Below are positions 54,107 to 62,271 of a stretch of DNA of 64,000 nucleotides, piece after piece. Position numbers and translations under genes: made by a program. This DNA is from an uncultured Eggerthellaceae bacterium. Its GTDB lineage: Bacteria; Actinomycetota; Coriobacteriia; Coriobacteriales; Eggerthellaceae. The stretch covers positions 186,001 through 250,000 of the forward strand of contig CANSWY010000001.1 of the NCBI GenBank assembly GCA_947650915.1, read 5' to 3'. Within the stretch, counting starts at the first letter, position 1. Each line of letters starts with the position of its first letter. The notes below the pieces were generated by a model that saw nothing but the letters and a program-made list of their open reading frames with translations, was not told the DNA's origin and made no database searches.

Positions 54107-54544
54107 ATGGGCCCTCAGGCAGGTTGGTACGACGATCCCAACGGCACGCCCGGGAAGCTGCGTTATTGGGACGGCGTTCAGTGGACGGACCAGTACACGG
54201 ATGCGCCCGCCTCATCCGCAGCTGGAGACCAAGCCTATGCTGGCTCGTACCAGGCATCCGCTGCTGCAGGGCCGCTCGTGTCCACCATGCTTCCCGGCCA
54301 GATCTATCCCATGACGGAAACGGACCGGACGCTCCGGCTCATCGCCTTCATTTGGAACGTGCTCTGCACGGTGGGCTGCGGCATCCTCCTCATCCCGCTG
54401 GCGTGGATGATCCCCATGACGGTGCATTCCTATGGCATCTACAAGGGCACGAAGCCGAACACCGTCGGTTTCGATGTCTGCACGCTCATCTTCATCGGTC
54501 TCATCTCCGGCATACTGCTGCTCTGCTCCAAAAAGGAAGCCTGA
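54107..54544 (+). CDS. DUF2510 domain membrane protein
   Basis: A 145-residue protein. The N-terminal DUF2510 motif is AGWYDDPNGTPGKLRYWDG with WTD following; this Trp-rich motif is common in actinobacterial envelope proteins. Two transmembrane helices follow (about 80-105 and 120-140). Function unknown. CAAGGAGG precedes ATG 54107. Confidence 0.82.
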   Translation: MGPQAGWYDDPNGTPGKLRYWDGVQWTDQYTDAPASSAAGDQAYAGSYQASAAAGPLVSTMLPGQIYPMTETDRTLRLIAFIWNVLCTVGCGILLIPLAWMIPMTVHSYGIYKGTKPNTVGFDVCTLIFIGLISGILLLCSKKEA

Positions 54545-54583
54545 CCCACACTCGAACGCACTGATGCGCGGAGGGGCGTTCCA

Positions 54584-54694
54584 GGATGCGGATGTGCAGA
54601 AGGGACGTCCCAAATTGCACATAGGACAAGACGATGCGCACTGGAGACGATCCCTATGTGCAATTTGGAACGTCCCTTCTGCACATCCGCATCC
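54584..54694. repeat. long inverted-repeat element, copy 1 (MITE-like)
   Basis: Arms 54584-54625 and 54653-54694 are 42 bases each and complementary at 41 positions; the 27-base centre is single-stranded in the hairpin. Each arm contains GGGACGTCCC or its one-base variant. The centre is conserved in copy 2, so this is a mobile-type unit and not a simple terminator. No gene is inside. The rest of the gap up to 54783 shows no clear gene. Confidence 0.85.
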
Positions 54695-56504: not shown

Positions 56505-56538
56505 GATGTGCAAAAGGGACGTCCCAAATCGCACAGAG
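56505..56538. repeat. half copy of the inverted-repeat element
   Basis: A single left arm closely matching 54591-54625, with three or four changes, without its partner arm. It lies 15 bases before full copy 2. Confidence 0.75.
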
Positions 56539-56552
56539 CAGAAACCTTGCCC

Positions 56553-56650
56553 GATGTGCAGAAGGGACGTCCCAAATTGCACATAGGACAAGACGATGCG
56601 TACTGGAAGGTGACCTCTATGTGCAATTTGGAACGTCCCTTTTGCACATC
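56553..56650. repeat. long inverted-repeat element, copy 2
   Basis: Arms 56553-56587 and 56617-56650, nearly complementary over 33-35 bases, with a centre that shares ACAAGACGATGCG and ACTGGA with copy 1. The two copies flank the araC-EamA pair in the same orientation. Confidence 0.85.
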
Positions 56651-56662
56651 CCTGAGACGAGA

Positions 56663-56691: not shown

Positions 56692-56743
56692 TTCGAAATG
56701 GCGGGATGTACGAGACTTGAACACGCGACCTCCGACGTGACAG
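56692..56743 (-). repeat. tRNA-Asp 3'-end duplicate: island attachment site, distal copy
   Basis: 52 bases match 62188-62239 with one mismatch; they cover the 3' part of tRNA-Asp through the T-arm to the anticodon. This is the usual mark of site-specific integration into a tRNA gene. The remnant lacks the 5' half and is not a functional tRNA. Confidence 0.88.
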
Positions 56744-57073
56744 AACGGACTTCTGACAATATCTTGCCTTAGTCCACCATTTGGCTCGCTAACCAAACAC
56801 CCTGAAAATCATTATCGGTGGCTTCGATTTACGTGACAAATATGATATCTGAACAGGTATTTCTTGAATGCATAAGAAATAGCCTATGGCTTCGAGATTT
56901 GTTTGTGGCAATTCCTAGGTGACCAAAACTCACCCAACACGCTCAATCCGCCTAAAACGGTTTAGCCGTTTTAACCGTTTAAACGGCTAAAACCTCGTGG
57001 AGCCGGACCTATTTTCAGACCTATTTTTCGGCTAGCTTCAAAACAACAGACCTAAAACAGATCTGTATTTTGA
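56744..57073. other. gene-free AT-rich island end with inverted repeat
   Basis: 330 bases without a supported gene. TTTAGCCGTTT (56961-56971) and AAACGGCTAAA (56981-56991) form an 11-base-pair hairpin. After it come CCTCGTGGAG and several GACCTA heptamers (57006-57052). A related block occurs at 61,020-61,080 on the other side of the island. Confidence 0.5.
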
Positions 57074-58042
57074 TTACTCATTGCTTGAATCTGCTTCGCC
57101 TTTGAGCCTGCGCATTGCGATTGGAGTATCGCCCAGTATCTTGATGGAGTCACCAACCCTACGCCACACTCTATATACCTCTCCGCCCCTTTCTTCGGCC
57201 TTTGATGGGTCCATCTCGAAAACGCCTATGAAACGATACCCAGATGTCCTGAAAACCGGATCGTACACGTACGGGATGATGACCCGCTGCATGCTCTCCT
57301 CTTTGGGCAGTTTGCGTCCATCCACGTTTCGCTCATAGAGCTCACTACCGTCCTCTTTGAGCAAATTCTTCCATCCATTGGTATTAGAACCATCAATCGA
57401 TATCTTAGGGAACCATACTATGCGTTCCTCGGAATATTCATTCTCGAAAGCACCGTAAGGAACAAAGAAGGCATGCTGCTGAAACGAATAGTCAGTGTCG
57501 AACAAGAGATTGCTTGCATCTGTGATTGTCCTGAAAACAATTCCATCAGATACGAAAATCTCCTCTTTGCCCTCTAGAAGTTCCTTTACCGTCCGACTAG
57601 GGTTCCAAGGCTGCAGTTCGCCCCGACTCTCCAACTCAGCGATTCTATTTTTTAATGTAGAAACAGCTTCATCGATGTCTTGCATTGCAAGTACATAATC
57701 TGGAGCCTTATCTTCTCCACAGACGCGAATATGCTTAGCCTCATATGTTTGATCTTGAGTGTTTACGGCTGAGAGGATATCAACCAGCTCGGCTTCACGC
57801 TCTTTGTCCGCCTCTTCTTGATTCAGATGGTGAGCTTCATCACATTCGATACCAATATTGAGCTGAGGGAAATATAGATCGATAAATCTTCTTCCTTTCT
57901 CATGGTTTCGAACATACTGCTGGGAAACAGGTTGAATATCATCTCGATCGAGCTTGTTCCAAATAGCATTGATGACAAAGTTTTCGTAGTCTTTGCGATT
58001 GGTTCGAGACAGCGTCTTCGCCAAGTAAGTCAACTTCTCCAT
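57074..58042 (-). CDS. AbaSI/PvuRts1I-family restriction endonuclease (modified-cytosine dependent, type IV-like)
   Basis: A 322-residue protein. The N-terminal half matches my recollection of AbaSI/PvuRts1I: YENFVINAIWNKL, a QQYVR stretch, then the nuclease core FIDLYFPQLNIGIECDEAHH with D55 and E66/D68/E69 as PD-(D/E)XK or Vsr-like catalytic candidates. The C-terminal half (WFPKISIDGSNTNGWKN, SGYRFIGVFEMD) fits the SRA-like reader domain that recognises 5-hydroxymethylcytosine or its glucosylated form. Such enzymes cut phage DNA with modified cytosines and need no methyltransferase; none is seen here. AAGGAG precedes the ATG on the minus strand. GC content is clearly below the core. Confidence 0.72.
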   Translation of the reverse strand: MEKLTYLAKTLSRTNRKDYENFVINAIWNKLDRDDIQPVSQQYVRNHEKGRRFIDLYFPQLNIGIECDEAHHLNQEEADKEREAELVDILSAVNTQDQTYEAKHIRVCGEDKAPDYVLAMQDIDEAVSTLKNRIAELESRGELQPWNPSRTVKELLEGKEEIFVSDGIVFRTITDASNLLFDTDYSFQQHAFFVPYGAFENEYSEERIVWFPKISIDGSNTNGWKNLLKEDGSELYERNVDGRKLPKEESMQRVIIPYVYDPVFRTSGYRFIGVFEMDPSKAEERGGEVYRVWRRVGDSIKILGDTPIAMRRLKGEADSSNE

Positions 58043-58046
58043 TGCA

Positions 58047-58151
58047 ATATTTCTCCTTCAGTATCATTGCTTGCTCCGCGATCTTCTCGCGGAGACTTTC
58101 AGGTTCAAGTACCTCTGCCATATCAGAATACTGTAGCGCCCAGGAACCCAT
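58047..58151 (-). pseudogene. C-terminal fragment of a WYL-domain-type regulator
   Basis: 35 codons read MGSWALQYSDMAEVLEPESL followed by REKIAEQAMILKEKY, which resembles the final strand and helix of WYL-domain proteins (WALQYG...VEVLEPE.LR). The frame continues without a stop into the restriction gene in another frame, and everything upstream is replaced by a REP palindrome and the RAYT2 gene. WYL regulators often control defence operons, so this may be the lost regulator of the nuclease. Short length keeps certainty moderate. Confidence 0.5.
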
Positions 58152-58170
58152 TGGGGGCGGGGCTATTGGG
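58143..58170 (+). repeat. REP family 2, left copy
   Basis: GGAACCCATTGGGGGCGGGG then CTATTGGG. It matches the right copy at 59017-59044 in inverted orientation, with about three differences in 28 bases. It abuts the WYL fragment. Confidence 0.75.
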
Positions 58171-58229: not shown

Positions 58230-58994
58230 ATGACAAGGCGCGCACGGCAAGCTTCGGAGAGCGGTTGGTACCATGTGACGATGCGTGGAGCGGGGCGACG
58301 GGCGCTGTTCGAGGACGATGATGACAGGGTCCGTTTCCTCCGTGATCTGGACGATGCTGCAAGGCATAGCAACGAGGCGGTCGAGATCCCTGCATGGTGC
58401 CTCATGGACAACCATGTCCATCTCGTGGTGAAGGCTGAGGACCTCTCTTCGCTCCAGCGGTCCACGCACAGGCTCTGCTCTGGCTATGCGTCCAGGTTCA
58501 ACCGCAAGAACGGGCATGTGGGACCGGTCTTCCAGGAACGGTTCGCGAGCTTTCCCATAGAAAGTGATGCGTATCTGATGGAAGCGATCAGATACGTCCA
58601 TCTCAACTGCCGGGACAAGGGGTTCGAAGACCCCGCCCGGTATCGCTGGTCTAGCTATCGGCTCTTCATAGATGGCCCGCGCACGCTCGCCATGGATGGG
58701 ATCGTTGACCTGTTCGGCGGACCGGACGGCTTCAAGAGGTTCCATGCAGAGGACGTGCACCTGGGCATGGTGGAGGCGCCGACGCACAGGCGCAGGCTCG
58801 ATGATGAACGCGCGCGCCGCATCGCGCGCATTGAGTGCGGCTCAGGCTTCGCCGAAGTGATCCCCTTGATGGAGCATTCCGAAAGGGACAGAGCGATAGC
58901 GCGCCTCTACGCGCTGGGGCTGTCAACAAGGCAGCTTGAGAGGATGACAGGGATCGGCAGAAGCGTGATCAGAAGGGTCTGCCATTTGAAATAG
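58230..58994 (+). CDS. REP-associated tyrosine transposase with C-terminal helix-turn-helix, RAYT2
   Basis: A 254-residue Y1 transposase. HVH is at 62-64 in CLMDNHVHLVV, the catalytic Tyr candidate is Y122 in EAIRYVHLNC, and GHVGPVFQERF is a family marker. The last 40 residues form an HTH (LGLSTRQLERMTGIGRSVIRRV), like the Chp/DnaA-type C-termini of some RAYTs. It is flanked by inverted REP copies at 58,143 and 59,017. Its GC content is high, unlike the genes on each side. GGAGG (58216-58220) precedes ATG 58230. It is only distantly similar to RAYT1. Confidence 0.87.
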   Translation: MTRRARQASESGWYHVTMRGAGRRALFEDDDDRVRFLRDLDDAARHSNEAVEIPAWCLMDNHVHLVVKAEDLSSLQRSTHRLCSGYASRFNRKNGHVGPVFQERFASFPIESDAYLMEAIRYVHLNCRDKGFEDPARYRWSSYRLFIDGPRTLAMDGIVDLFGGPDGFKRFHAEDVHLGMVEAPTHRRRLDDERARRIARIECGSGFAEVIPLMEHSERDRAIARLYALGLSTRQLERMTGIGRSVIRRVCHLK

Positions 58995-59016: not shown

Positions 59017-59044
59017 CCCAATGTCCCCGTCCCCAATGGGTTCC
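59017..59044 (-). repeat. REP family 2, right copy
   Basis: CCCAATGTCCCCGTCCCCAA then TGGGTTCC, the reverse complement of the left copy with few changes. Together they bracket RAYT2. Confidence 0.75.
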
Positions 59045-59055
59045 TCAATCGACCG

Positions 59056-59114: not shown

Positions 59115-60077
59115 ATGCGGTTTGAATTAAATGAATATAAAGGTGAACTTAGCGACGACGAGATACTGAATGATATTAGGCGTGTGGCACAGAACCTAAA
59201 TACGGACTATATCTCTATTTCAGTTTACAAAAAAAATGGGAAGCATTCTCAGACTGCAATACAAAGGCATTTCGGAACCTGGGTCCATGCTCTAGAGTTA
59301 GCAGGTTTGAGATCTAAGCGAACTGCCGAAGAGTTAAAAAGCATCAGCAATGAAGATTACTACGCTGATTTAAGAAGAGTTGCTCGCTTGATAGGTAGCG
59401 ATACCGTACCTTATGAATCATATTTGCAATTTGGGCAATACTCTTGTGGTCATATCTTTCATCGCTTTGGTAAATGGAATACGGCGCTAGCAAACGCTGG
59501 TCTTAAAGAGACAGGCTTTTCTAAGGAGAAAATATCGAAACAACAATGCTTTGATGAGATAGAGCGCATGTGGATAACGTTAGGGAGACAGCCAACCTCT
59601 ACAGACATAACCAAAGGAGGTCTCTCTGCGTATTCATTAGACACCTTTAAACGACGTTTTGGAGGATGGAGAAAAGCACTGGAGGCTTTCATTGAATACA
59701 TTAATAATGACAAGCCCGACGCCAACTTTATGCCAGCAGCGAACAGTGATTGCCTCGAACAAAAAGAAGAGAATCAGGAATCTGTCAATGAACGCCCAAA
59801 TCCCAGTAGCCAAATAAATGACGCTGCTCAAAACCCGACTCAAATAGAGACAAAGAGTCATCGTACATCTAGAAATATTAATGCGAGATTAAGATATAAG
59901 GTATTGCTAAGGGACAATTTCAAATGCTGCGCCTGCGGTGCATCTCCTGCAAAGGACCCATCAGTCGAACTGCATATCGATCATATTGTGCCTTGGTCAA
60001 AAGGCGGAGAAACCGTAATTGAAAACCTTCAAACCCTTTGCTCGAAATGCAATCTGGGAAAAGGAAGCGATGCGTAA
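59115..60077 (+). CDS. HNH endonuclease with N-terminal homing-endonuclease-associated repeats
   Basis: A 320-residue, AT-rich gene. The N-terminal 195 residues hold three related repeats of about 60 residues, each ending in a pattern like HFGTWVHALELAGL, RFGKWNTALANAGL and RFGGWRKALEAFIE, as in the repeats attached to some HNH homing endonucleases. A Gln/Asn-rich linker follows. The C-terminal 60 residues are an HNH domain: CCACG, ELHIDHIVPWSKGGET, LQTLCSKCNLGKG with paired zinc cysteines. It may be a homing or defence nuclease. GGAGG lies four bases before ATG 59115. Confidence 0.82.
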   Translation: MRFELNEYKGELSDDEILNDIRRVAQNLNTDYISISVYKKNGKHSQTAIQRHFGTWVHALELAGLRSKRTAEELKSISNEDYYADLRRVARLIGSDTVPYESYLQFGQYSCGHIFHRFGKWNTALANAGLKETGFSKEKISKQQCFDEIERMWITLGRQPTSTDITKGGLSAYSLDTFKRRFGGWRKALEAFIEYINNDKPDANFMPAANSDCLEQKEENQESVNERPNPSSQINDAAQNPTQIETKSHRTSRNINARLRYKVLLRDNFKCCACGASPAKDPSVELHIDHIVPWSKGGETVIENLQTLCSKCNLGKGSDA

Positions 60078-60150: not shown

Positions 60151-60762
60151 CTAAAGCATTTTGTCTGCAATGGTTTGTAAGGTAAAAGCTATTGTTTTGC
60201 ATGGCTCATTTTGATTATATACTCGACCAGATGGAATATCGCAGTATGCTCCCGAGGGAACATTGAACGTTTCCTCGTAAACGTTTCCTATAGACGATTC
60301 ATACTTGATTCTTGTTTCGATATAAGAGGGTAATCCATCGATTACAGTTCCATTAAGAATGCATACAAAACTTTGCCCCGGGAGAATGGAAGAACCAACG
60401 AGATGTTCGAAGGGCTCCCGCTCTGGTTTAACAGGTAGCGCACCTTTAAGGCTTGTACCAACAAACGTGATTTCACGAACAAAGGCTTCTGAGCTCCCAT
60501 AGTTTTTTAAGACAAGCTTGTACTCTGTTGAACTATTGTTAACGTGCTCTCCCGTCATGCCAACATAGGGTCTTGTCGAATCTTCGATCATTCTGTTGTT
60601 CTGCTTCAAAGTCGCTAAAGCCACTTTGACAGAAACTACCACAATAACTAAAGACAGAAGGCAGAAGATAATATTCGAAATGGTCGCTGCTACGCTCCAG
60701 TCAAAGTCATAGTCAAGTATTTGAACGGAAATAGGTTGCTGAGTTGCAAATTCGTTATTCAT
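60151..60762 (-). CDS. hypothetical membrane-anchored protein
   Basis: A 203-residue protein not recognised by name. One transmembrane helix at about 27-50 (ISNIIFCLLSLVIVVVSVKVAL) is followed by LKQNNRMIEDSTRPYV and a soluble C-terminal domain likely rich in beta strands. Proteins of this shape occur in accessory islands. Base composition is AT-rich like the HNH gene. A weak GGGAAGT lies before the ATG on the minus strand. Confidence 0.65.
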   Translation of the reverse strand: MNNEFATQQPISVQILDYDFDWSVAATISNIIFCLLSLVIVVVSVKVALATLKQNNRMIEDSTRPYVGMTGEHVNNSSTEYKLVLKNYGSSEAFVREITFVGTSLKGALPVKPEREPFEHLVGSSILPGQSFVCILNGTVIDGLPSYIETRIKYESSIGNVYEETFNVPSGAYCDIPSGRVYNQNEPCKTIAFTLQTIADKML

Positions 60763-60937: not shown

Positions 60938-61137
60938 TAACACATTGGCATGACCTCGTAAAAGCTCTTACAGGCTTGACTTGGAACTCGAGACGAACAA
61001 GTCGTTTTAGACCGTTTAGGATGTTTAAGCCTCGTGGAGTCAGCCCAAGCAGACCTAAAAACAGACCTATTTTGTGGTTTTCGGAACCTGATAATAAAAA
61101 ATCAGGAGCCAAAAGTGACTTCTGACCTCATGGATGT

Positions 61138-61164
61138 GAACCCATTGGGGACGGGGTCATCGGG
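61138..61164 (+). repeat. REP family 2, third copy
   Basis: GAACCCATTGGGGACGGGGT then CATCGGG. A partial inverted partner (CCCCTGTTTTCAATGGGTTC) is at 61205-61224. Confidence 0.7.
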
Positions 61165-61453: not shown

Positions 61454-61861
61454 TCAGAACGTGTTCAAGACTTCAGCTGGGTAGGTCTTTTCAAGACTGT
61501 CCAGCAAGCTGTCGAATGCTGGGATGAAATCGCTGATTATGTCGTCCACCAGATCGCGCGCCATGTCGGAGTTGTAGACATGGAGCGCTTCGTTACGCGC
61601 ATCGAGCATGGACAGCCACAAGTCTTCGTCGATGAAATCGTAGGAGCTGTACGCGGCTTTGATGATGGTCCGGGGCGAACCTGCCGCCGATTCGACTCTG
61701 CCATCGTACTGCAAGGCTTTTTGCAGCAGTTTCCACGCAAGCTCGAACTGGAGCGAGAACTTACCGATGATCCCATTCTGTATGAACTCATCCGAAAGGT
61801 CTTTCTCAGGGGCTTGGCGCAAGGCAGCCAACTGCGACCTGTAGTTGTCATACTTGGCCAT
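61454..61861 (-). CDS. hepT: HEPN toxin of a HEPN/MNT module (HepT-like)
   Basis: A 135-residue helical protein of the nucleotidyltransferase-substrate-binding (HI0074-like) group. The HEPN RNase motif RX4HXY is exact: R89, H94, Y96 in DARNEALHVY. In type VII systems the MNT partner adds AMP to the Tyr of this motif and silences the RNase. The gene overlaps mntA by 14 bases, so the pair is co-translated. Confidence 0.88.
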   Translation of the reverse strand: MAKYDNYRSQLAALRQAPEKDLSDEFIQNGIIGKFSLQFELAWKLLQKALQYDGRVESAAGSPRTIIKAAYSSYDFIDEDLWLSMLDARNEALHVYNSDMARDLVDDIISDFIPAFDSLLDSLEKTYPAEVLNTF

Positions 61862-62141
61862 ATATCTTCACGCCTTCCTCGGCTATCCTCTTTGCGAATC
61901 CGTCGCTCAACGAGTTCGAAAGATCCACGAAATCGAACTGGAGCAAGGTCGGGCACCGCTCATCAAGAGCCTCGACGAAGTCATGGTAGCGATCGCCCGA
62001 AACGGCGAGATCGATGTCGCTCTTTTCTGTGAACCGTCCTGTAGCGCGCGATCCGAACAGAATGATTTCTGACATGCCGCAGTCCTCAGCGGCCTCAACG
62101 ATGAAGGCGAGGACGTCATCTTTGAGGCCGAACGCGTTCAT
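61848..62141 (-). CDS. mntA: MNT-type minimal nucleotidyltransferase antitoxin (MntA-like)
   Basis: A 97-residue protein with the GSX10DXD motif: G30-S31 and D42-D44 in ILFGSRATGRFTEKSDIDLAV, read as two adjoining pieces. It is the predicted AMP-transferring antitoxin for the HEPN protein that follows. AAGGAAG precedes the ATG on the minus strand. It lies 53 bases from the 3' end of tRNA-Asp and so is the island gene closest to the attachment site. Confidence 0.88.
   Translation of the reverse strand: MNAFGLKDDVLAFIVEAAEDCGMSEIILFGSRATGRFTEKSDIDLAVSGDRYHDFVEALDERCPTLLQFDFVDLSNSLSDGFAKRIAEEGVKIYGQV

Positions 62142-62194: not shown

Positions 62195-62271
<77 letters not shown>

Follow-up and report, generated by a model that had tools for sequence, protein, structure and literature searches.

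A predicted PvuRts1I/AbaSI-family endonuclease within a small integrase-less tRNA-Asp island of an Eggerthellaceae bacterium

PvuRts1I is used for the mapping of 5-hydroxymethylcytosine (5hmC). In its structure (PDB 4OKY, 4OQ2), and in that of AbaSI (PDB 4PAR, 4PBA, 4PBB), a nuclease domain is followed by an SRA domain. Mutation of K17, E20, D57, E68, D70, E71 or H74 in the nuclease domain of PvuRts1I, or of W205, P207, W215, N217 or E228 in its SRA pocket, abolishes or cuts activity (PMC4027163, PMC4157451). Tyr210, at the edge of the pocket, is reported to be conserved in homologues. Substitution Y210F raised the preference for 5hmC, and A212N lowered it (PMC4157451). The nearest kin of PvuRts1I are found on conjugative-type plasmids, whereas the gene described here lies in a chromosomal tRNA island. 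Integrase-less tRNA islands have been described elsewhere as CIMEs, in which, too, the 3′ end of a tRNA carries att-like repeats with no integrase or transfer genes between them (PMC5704250). WYL proteins, a remnant of which adjoins our gene, may repress, like BrxR, or activate, like PafBC (PMC9122601).

The window that we analysed is a stretch of 64,000 nucleotides from an uncultured Eggerthellaceae bacterium (contig CANSWY010000001.1). On its minus strand, at 57074-58042, a reading frame with an ATG start extends for 322 aa without an internal stop, and this gene is present in a single copy in the source genome. A first-pass annotation had taken the product for an AbaSI/PvuRts1I-type enzyme, and this is borne out by Pfam domains, PDB matches, PADLOC, the residue map and fold matches. 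Residues 5-106 (57725-58030, minus strand) match the PD-(D/E)XK (Vsr-like) domain PvuRts1I-like_N (PF21598, E 5.3e-32, 111 bits against a Pfam cut-off of 27), and residues 159-302 (57137-57568, minus strand) match the SRA domain (PF18491, E 4e-21, 76 bits against 30), in the order that is found in the PvuRts1I/AbaSI family. The two motifs that had been quoted are both present; the nuclease core FIDLYFPQLNIGIECDEAHH occupies residues 53-72 and contains the active site, and RFIGVFEMD is found at residues 270-278, within the SRA domain. The PADLOC model mREase_II, for Type II methyl-directed enzymes, matches over the whole length (E 4.1e-58). In a phmmer search of the PDB the protein aligns end to end with PvuRts1I (2.6e-26) and AbaSI (5.8e-21), with no credible match beyond these two. 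The domain, PADLOC and PDB matches all greatly exceed what chance would give. No NCBIfam model passes; homologues on plasmids carry the NCBI label ‘AbaSI family restriction endonuclease’. Length, domain order, active-site residues and main pocket residues are common to our protein and PvuRts1I at about 25-29% identity, while AbaSI has the same two domains at about 26% identity, and is the second-best match in sequence and the best in fold. Taking sequence and modelled fold together, we regard the protein as very probably a full-length member of the family, with a general function on modified cytosine predicted. It is an ordinary enzyme of a known kind, and the island that surrounds it is more unusual.

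The fold was modelled with AlphaFold from a six-sequence alignment, giving a structure of moderate confidence (mean pLDDT 61); a two-sequence model (pLDDT 42) was set aside. Below 1e-3 Foldseek matches nothing but five PvuRts1I and AbaSI chains, with E values of 1e-18 to 2e-17. VIA-align returns Z scores of 15.2 for AbaSI and 14.3 for PvuRts1I, at a whole-chain rmsd of about 12-14 Å, so that the relative placement of the domains in the model is unreliable. Among the lower VIA matches, Vsr and Hjc resolvase align with the N-terminal half, and the SRA domains of SUVH5, UHRF1, MspJI, LpnPI and AspBHI with the C-terminal half. At Z 5-7 these domain matches to a model are weak alone, and they agree with the sequence result. 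A PD-(D/E)XK or Vsr core and an SRA-like domain, by which the first-pass annotation had proposed to check the assignment, are both found by sequence and by fold matches.

The active site is complete. In a global alignment K17, E20, D55, E66, D68, E69 and H72 are identical to the mapped active-site residues of PvuRts1I, and the nuclease-site residues are invariant across ten homologues from three phyla (Coriobacteriia, Bacilli and Gammaproteobacteria). All the conserved residues E20, D57, L58, P61, E68, D70, E71 and H74, in the numbering of PvuRts1I, are present. In the base pocket W205, P207, W215, N217 and E228 of PvuRts1I correspond to W210, P212, W224, N226 and E237. The edge of the pocket is different: Tyr210, Ala212 and Tyr237 are replaced by Ser215, Asp217 and Pro246, and there is a four-residue insertion near 219-223. 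The same loop difference is seen relative to AbaSI. This natural change falls where the selectivity of PvuRts1I is tuned. The tyrosine is missing too from other homologues that NCBI places in the AbaSI family, and Tyr210 is thus not family-defining. The edge change and the insertion are common to the homologue of Enterorhabdus sp. P55 (L005, 5989-6957), an open gene whose product is 69% identical to ours. We rejected the notion that the insertion is unique to the Eggerthellaceae nuclease, as the loop varies in other homologues too.

What does such a pocket read? Were the altered edge to accept 5mC, or a differently decorated 5hmC, this would be an enzyme of the same family with a substrate other than 5hmC or glucosylated 5hmC (5ghmC). 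Y210 and A212, which set the selectivity of PvuRts1I (PMC4157451), are both replaced here, and the length and sequence of the loop vary across the family. Yet the stacking tryptophans and the base-contacting asparagine and glutamate are kept, and the loop also differs in other homologues that NCBI assigns to the AbaSI family, and so is not confined to this lineage; on balance we think another base rather unlikely. The reading of modified cytosine is well supported by the residues of the pocket, and phage DNA containing 5hmC or 5ghmC is the most likely target predicted, the exact base being unproven because the pocket edge differs from that of PvuRts1I.

If expressed, the nuclease would restrict DNA in the manner of Type IV (modification-dependent) enzymes, as a member of the PvuRts1I/AbaSI family. 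The SRA domain would flip out and read the modified cytosine, most likely 5hmC or 5ghmC, and the PD-(D/E)XK domain, as a dimer with Mg2+, would cut about 11-13 bases away; incoming modified phage DNA would be destroyed. These are the activity, substrate and defence role that we infer. Putative selection by phages with modified cytosine may fairly be drawn from the enzyme family.

How widespread are relatives of the nuclease? With the source genome counted, they occur in 3 of 138 genomes of the family, in 8 of 297 of the order and, when the phylum is sampled evenly, in 2 of 396. The protein thereby adds a well-supported PvuRts1I-type enzyme to the gut bacteria of the Actinobacteriota, where it is rare. 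Relatives are also found on 49 plasmids, mostly of Providencia, Moellerella and Proteus, and in eight phage records. A single-protein scan of viral contigs revealed none with the nuclease, and an alignment-based scan found four with relatives. Thus phages and prophages carry relatives of the nuclease. It is a mobile cargo gene, and this fits the family. In G340, another genome, a PvuRts1I-like gene has a C5 cytosine methylase gene close by (L019, 1201-2526 and 3382-4317).

Upstream of the nuclease lies the remnant of a WYL regulator. On the minus strand, 26 codons at 58068-58145 match positions 47-72 of the 76 of the WCX domain (PF25583, E 1e-5, above the Pfam cut-off; PADLOC WYL, 8.5e-6). The reading frame that contains them (58193-57939, minus strand, 84 aa) continues into the nuclease start without a stop of its own. 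Of WCX only the last third survives; the HTH, the WYL domain and most of WCX are gone, and a search for the rest of the gene between the transposase and the left end of the island found none. The truncated regulator that the first-pass annotation had placed here is therefore real, with 26 matched codons in place of the ‘final 35’ that it gave. As judged by these matches, the remnant is a pseudogene fragment.

The WCX match stops about where a 29-nt REP arm (58142-58170) begins. A second 29-nt arm, at 59017-59045, is inverted relative to it, and the two enclose a RAYT/Y1_Tnp-like gene of 254 aa (58230-58994, plus strand; PF01797, E 2.3e-8; NCBIfam RAYT model NF047646, E 2.5e-15, below its cut-off). 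The genome contains 16 copies of the REP sequence and none of the reversed control, so the Y1 transposase domain is flanked by genome-repeated REP arms, as is characteristic of a RAYT. REP is also found apart from this element, at 61141-61164. Insertion of the RAYT/REP element, or a rearrangement at it, would most simply account for the truncation of a WYL gene formerly located just upstream of the nuclease.

The first-pass annotation had gone further, proposing that the WYL protein repressed the nuclease and that its loss may leave expression constitutive. The arrangement is indeed operon-like, since the WCX remnant and the nuclease share a strand, with about 25 bp from the end of the former to the start of the latter, and BrxR-type WYL repressors are often found by defence genes, among them those of Type IV restriction (PMC9122601). 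However, PafBC and similar HTH-WYL-WCX proteins activate, and loss could equally silence the gene (PMC9122601). No WYL gene was seen beside the nuclease in Enterorhabdus, in the four Coriobacteriia-level relatives inspected or on three plasmids; in other members of the order the neighbours of the nuclease include a C5 methylase and a RelB/PemK pair. The upstream RAYT gene is oriented the opposite way, with no promoter-like site between, and no sigma-70-like promoter was found upstream of the nuclease in 57.9-58.3 kb. Because the relatives inspected lack an adjoining WYL gene, and WYL proteins repress or activate, constitutive expression is unsupported, and we consider de-repression improbable. 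We give as little credence to the idea that the locus is decaying and the nuclease an unexpressed cargo of a wrecked island. The gene presumed to be its partner is a truncated one, a transposase insertion is present, and the nuclease copies in two genomes (G041 and G226) are frameshifted, but here the frame is fully open over 322 codons and every active-site residue is kept. The course of events that we infer is one in which a small island inserted in the tRNA-Asp 3′ end brought in an intact nuclease gene as its cargo, and the RAYT/REP element was the likely cause of the damage to the WYL gene.

The island is 4.4 kb in length. It looks mobile and lies in the 3′ end of tRNA-Asp (GTC; 62195-62271, minus strand), its integration site. 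A 52-bp duplicate of the tRNA end delimits it at 56692-56743 (minus strand, 98% identity); this distal att-like repeat spans the last part of the tRNA and just beyond. The right end (56744-57064, minus strand) is common to four other genomes and is 79-88% identical to the consensus; the left end (61028-61132, minus strand) is 93% identical to a sequence that directly follows tRNA-Asp in Enterorhabdus sp. P55. Further cargo comprises an HNH protein of 320 aa (59115-60077, plus strand), with three homing-endonuclease-associated HNH_repeat units (PF18780, E 1.6e-34) and a C-terminal HNH domain (PF01844, E 6.7e-14), and a 203-aa protein (60151-60762, minus strand) with no family match. The HNH-repeat protein could be a defence or homing nuclease. 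No recombinase is encoded by the ORFs between the repeats, and the nearest Phage_integrase on the contig is 47 kb from the island. An island whose direct att-like repeats lie at the 3′ end of a tRNA and enclose no integrase is CIME-like. Beyond the repeat, AraC- and EamA-like genes common to genome G011 mark the chromosomal flank. Between tRNA-Asp and the left end, 61454-62141 encodes an MntA-like nucleotidyltransferase and an HI0074-type (HEPN) partner, a toxin-antitoxin-like pair.

The two ends are found, enclosing different cargo, in five or six genomes of the Eggerthellaceae (L005, L057, L058, L059 and L083). The right-end consensus has five full copies and one partial copy in 137 genomes of the family, in four genera; outside the family there is none among 395 genomes of the order, and its exact 26-mer was absent from the viral contigs. 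The left-end motif AATAGGTCTGnTTTTAGGTCTG, allowing up to two mismatches, is found at tRNA-Asp sites in five of the genomes that have the right end, and the reversed control in none. Enterorhabdus sp. P55 has the order tRNA-Asp, left end, a 380-aa zinc-ribbon protein, right end (72% identical to 57060-56698 of the window) and tRNA-end repeat. Its nuclease gene occupies the same tRNA-Asp neighbourhood just outside the att-like repeat, whereas ours is inside, and no WYL remnant is seen there. The nuclease is thus no constant component of the island. Across the copies the cargo comprises EcsC-like, DUF4268, HEPN, zinc-ribbon and HNH-repeat proteins and the PvuRts1I-type nuclease. No recombinase was seen in the listed cargo, of which that of G011 and G012 is incomplete as their contigs break within the site. 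In genome G134 (L083, 8614-10893, minus strand) the cargo adjoining tRNA-Asp encodes 760 aa, a protein in which about ten helix-turn-helix units surround a possible nuclease domain.

Decayed ICE remnants, or CIMEs (PMC5704250), are a plain alternative for the island. From the simple one-off decay of an ICE, however, one would not expect the same ends to recur in several genera with cargo that differs. We tentatively suggest, as something that may well prove otherwise, that these are small non-autonomous islands of the Eggerthellaceae, with conserved ends and the arm repeat AATAGGTCTGnTTTTAGGTCTG, that use an integrase in trans at tRNA-Asp and shuttle single defence-type genes, the nuclease among them, and that the right end may have a promoter of its own for a short tRNA-like RNA. 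If shown to move, the family would be a compact vehicle spreading defence genes among the Eggerthellaceae. A literature search for Eggerthella islands gave no paper. The recurrent integrase-less tRNA-Asp island is a more novel lead than the enzyme.

At the right end (56692-56839), and in L005, L057, L058 and L059, there is a promoter-like element TTGTCA-17-GATAAT located 73-75 nt before the tRNA-end repeat. Its -10 is invariant, and its -35 is TTATTA in L005. A strand that pairs with the CCCGCCAT end of the repeat is followed by a terminator-like hairpin, and the folding z-scores are uneven, from -0.3 to -3.5. The right end perhaps encodes a candidate short tRNA-like RNA. The right-end repeat was rejected as a tRNA gene, since neither ARAGORN nor Rfam makes a call. 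GC-rich palindromic repeats of the GGGACGTCCCAAATTGCACAT type lie between genes near the island, at 56508-56655 and 54439-54680.
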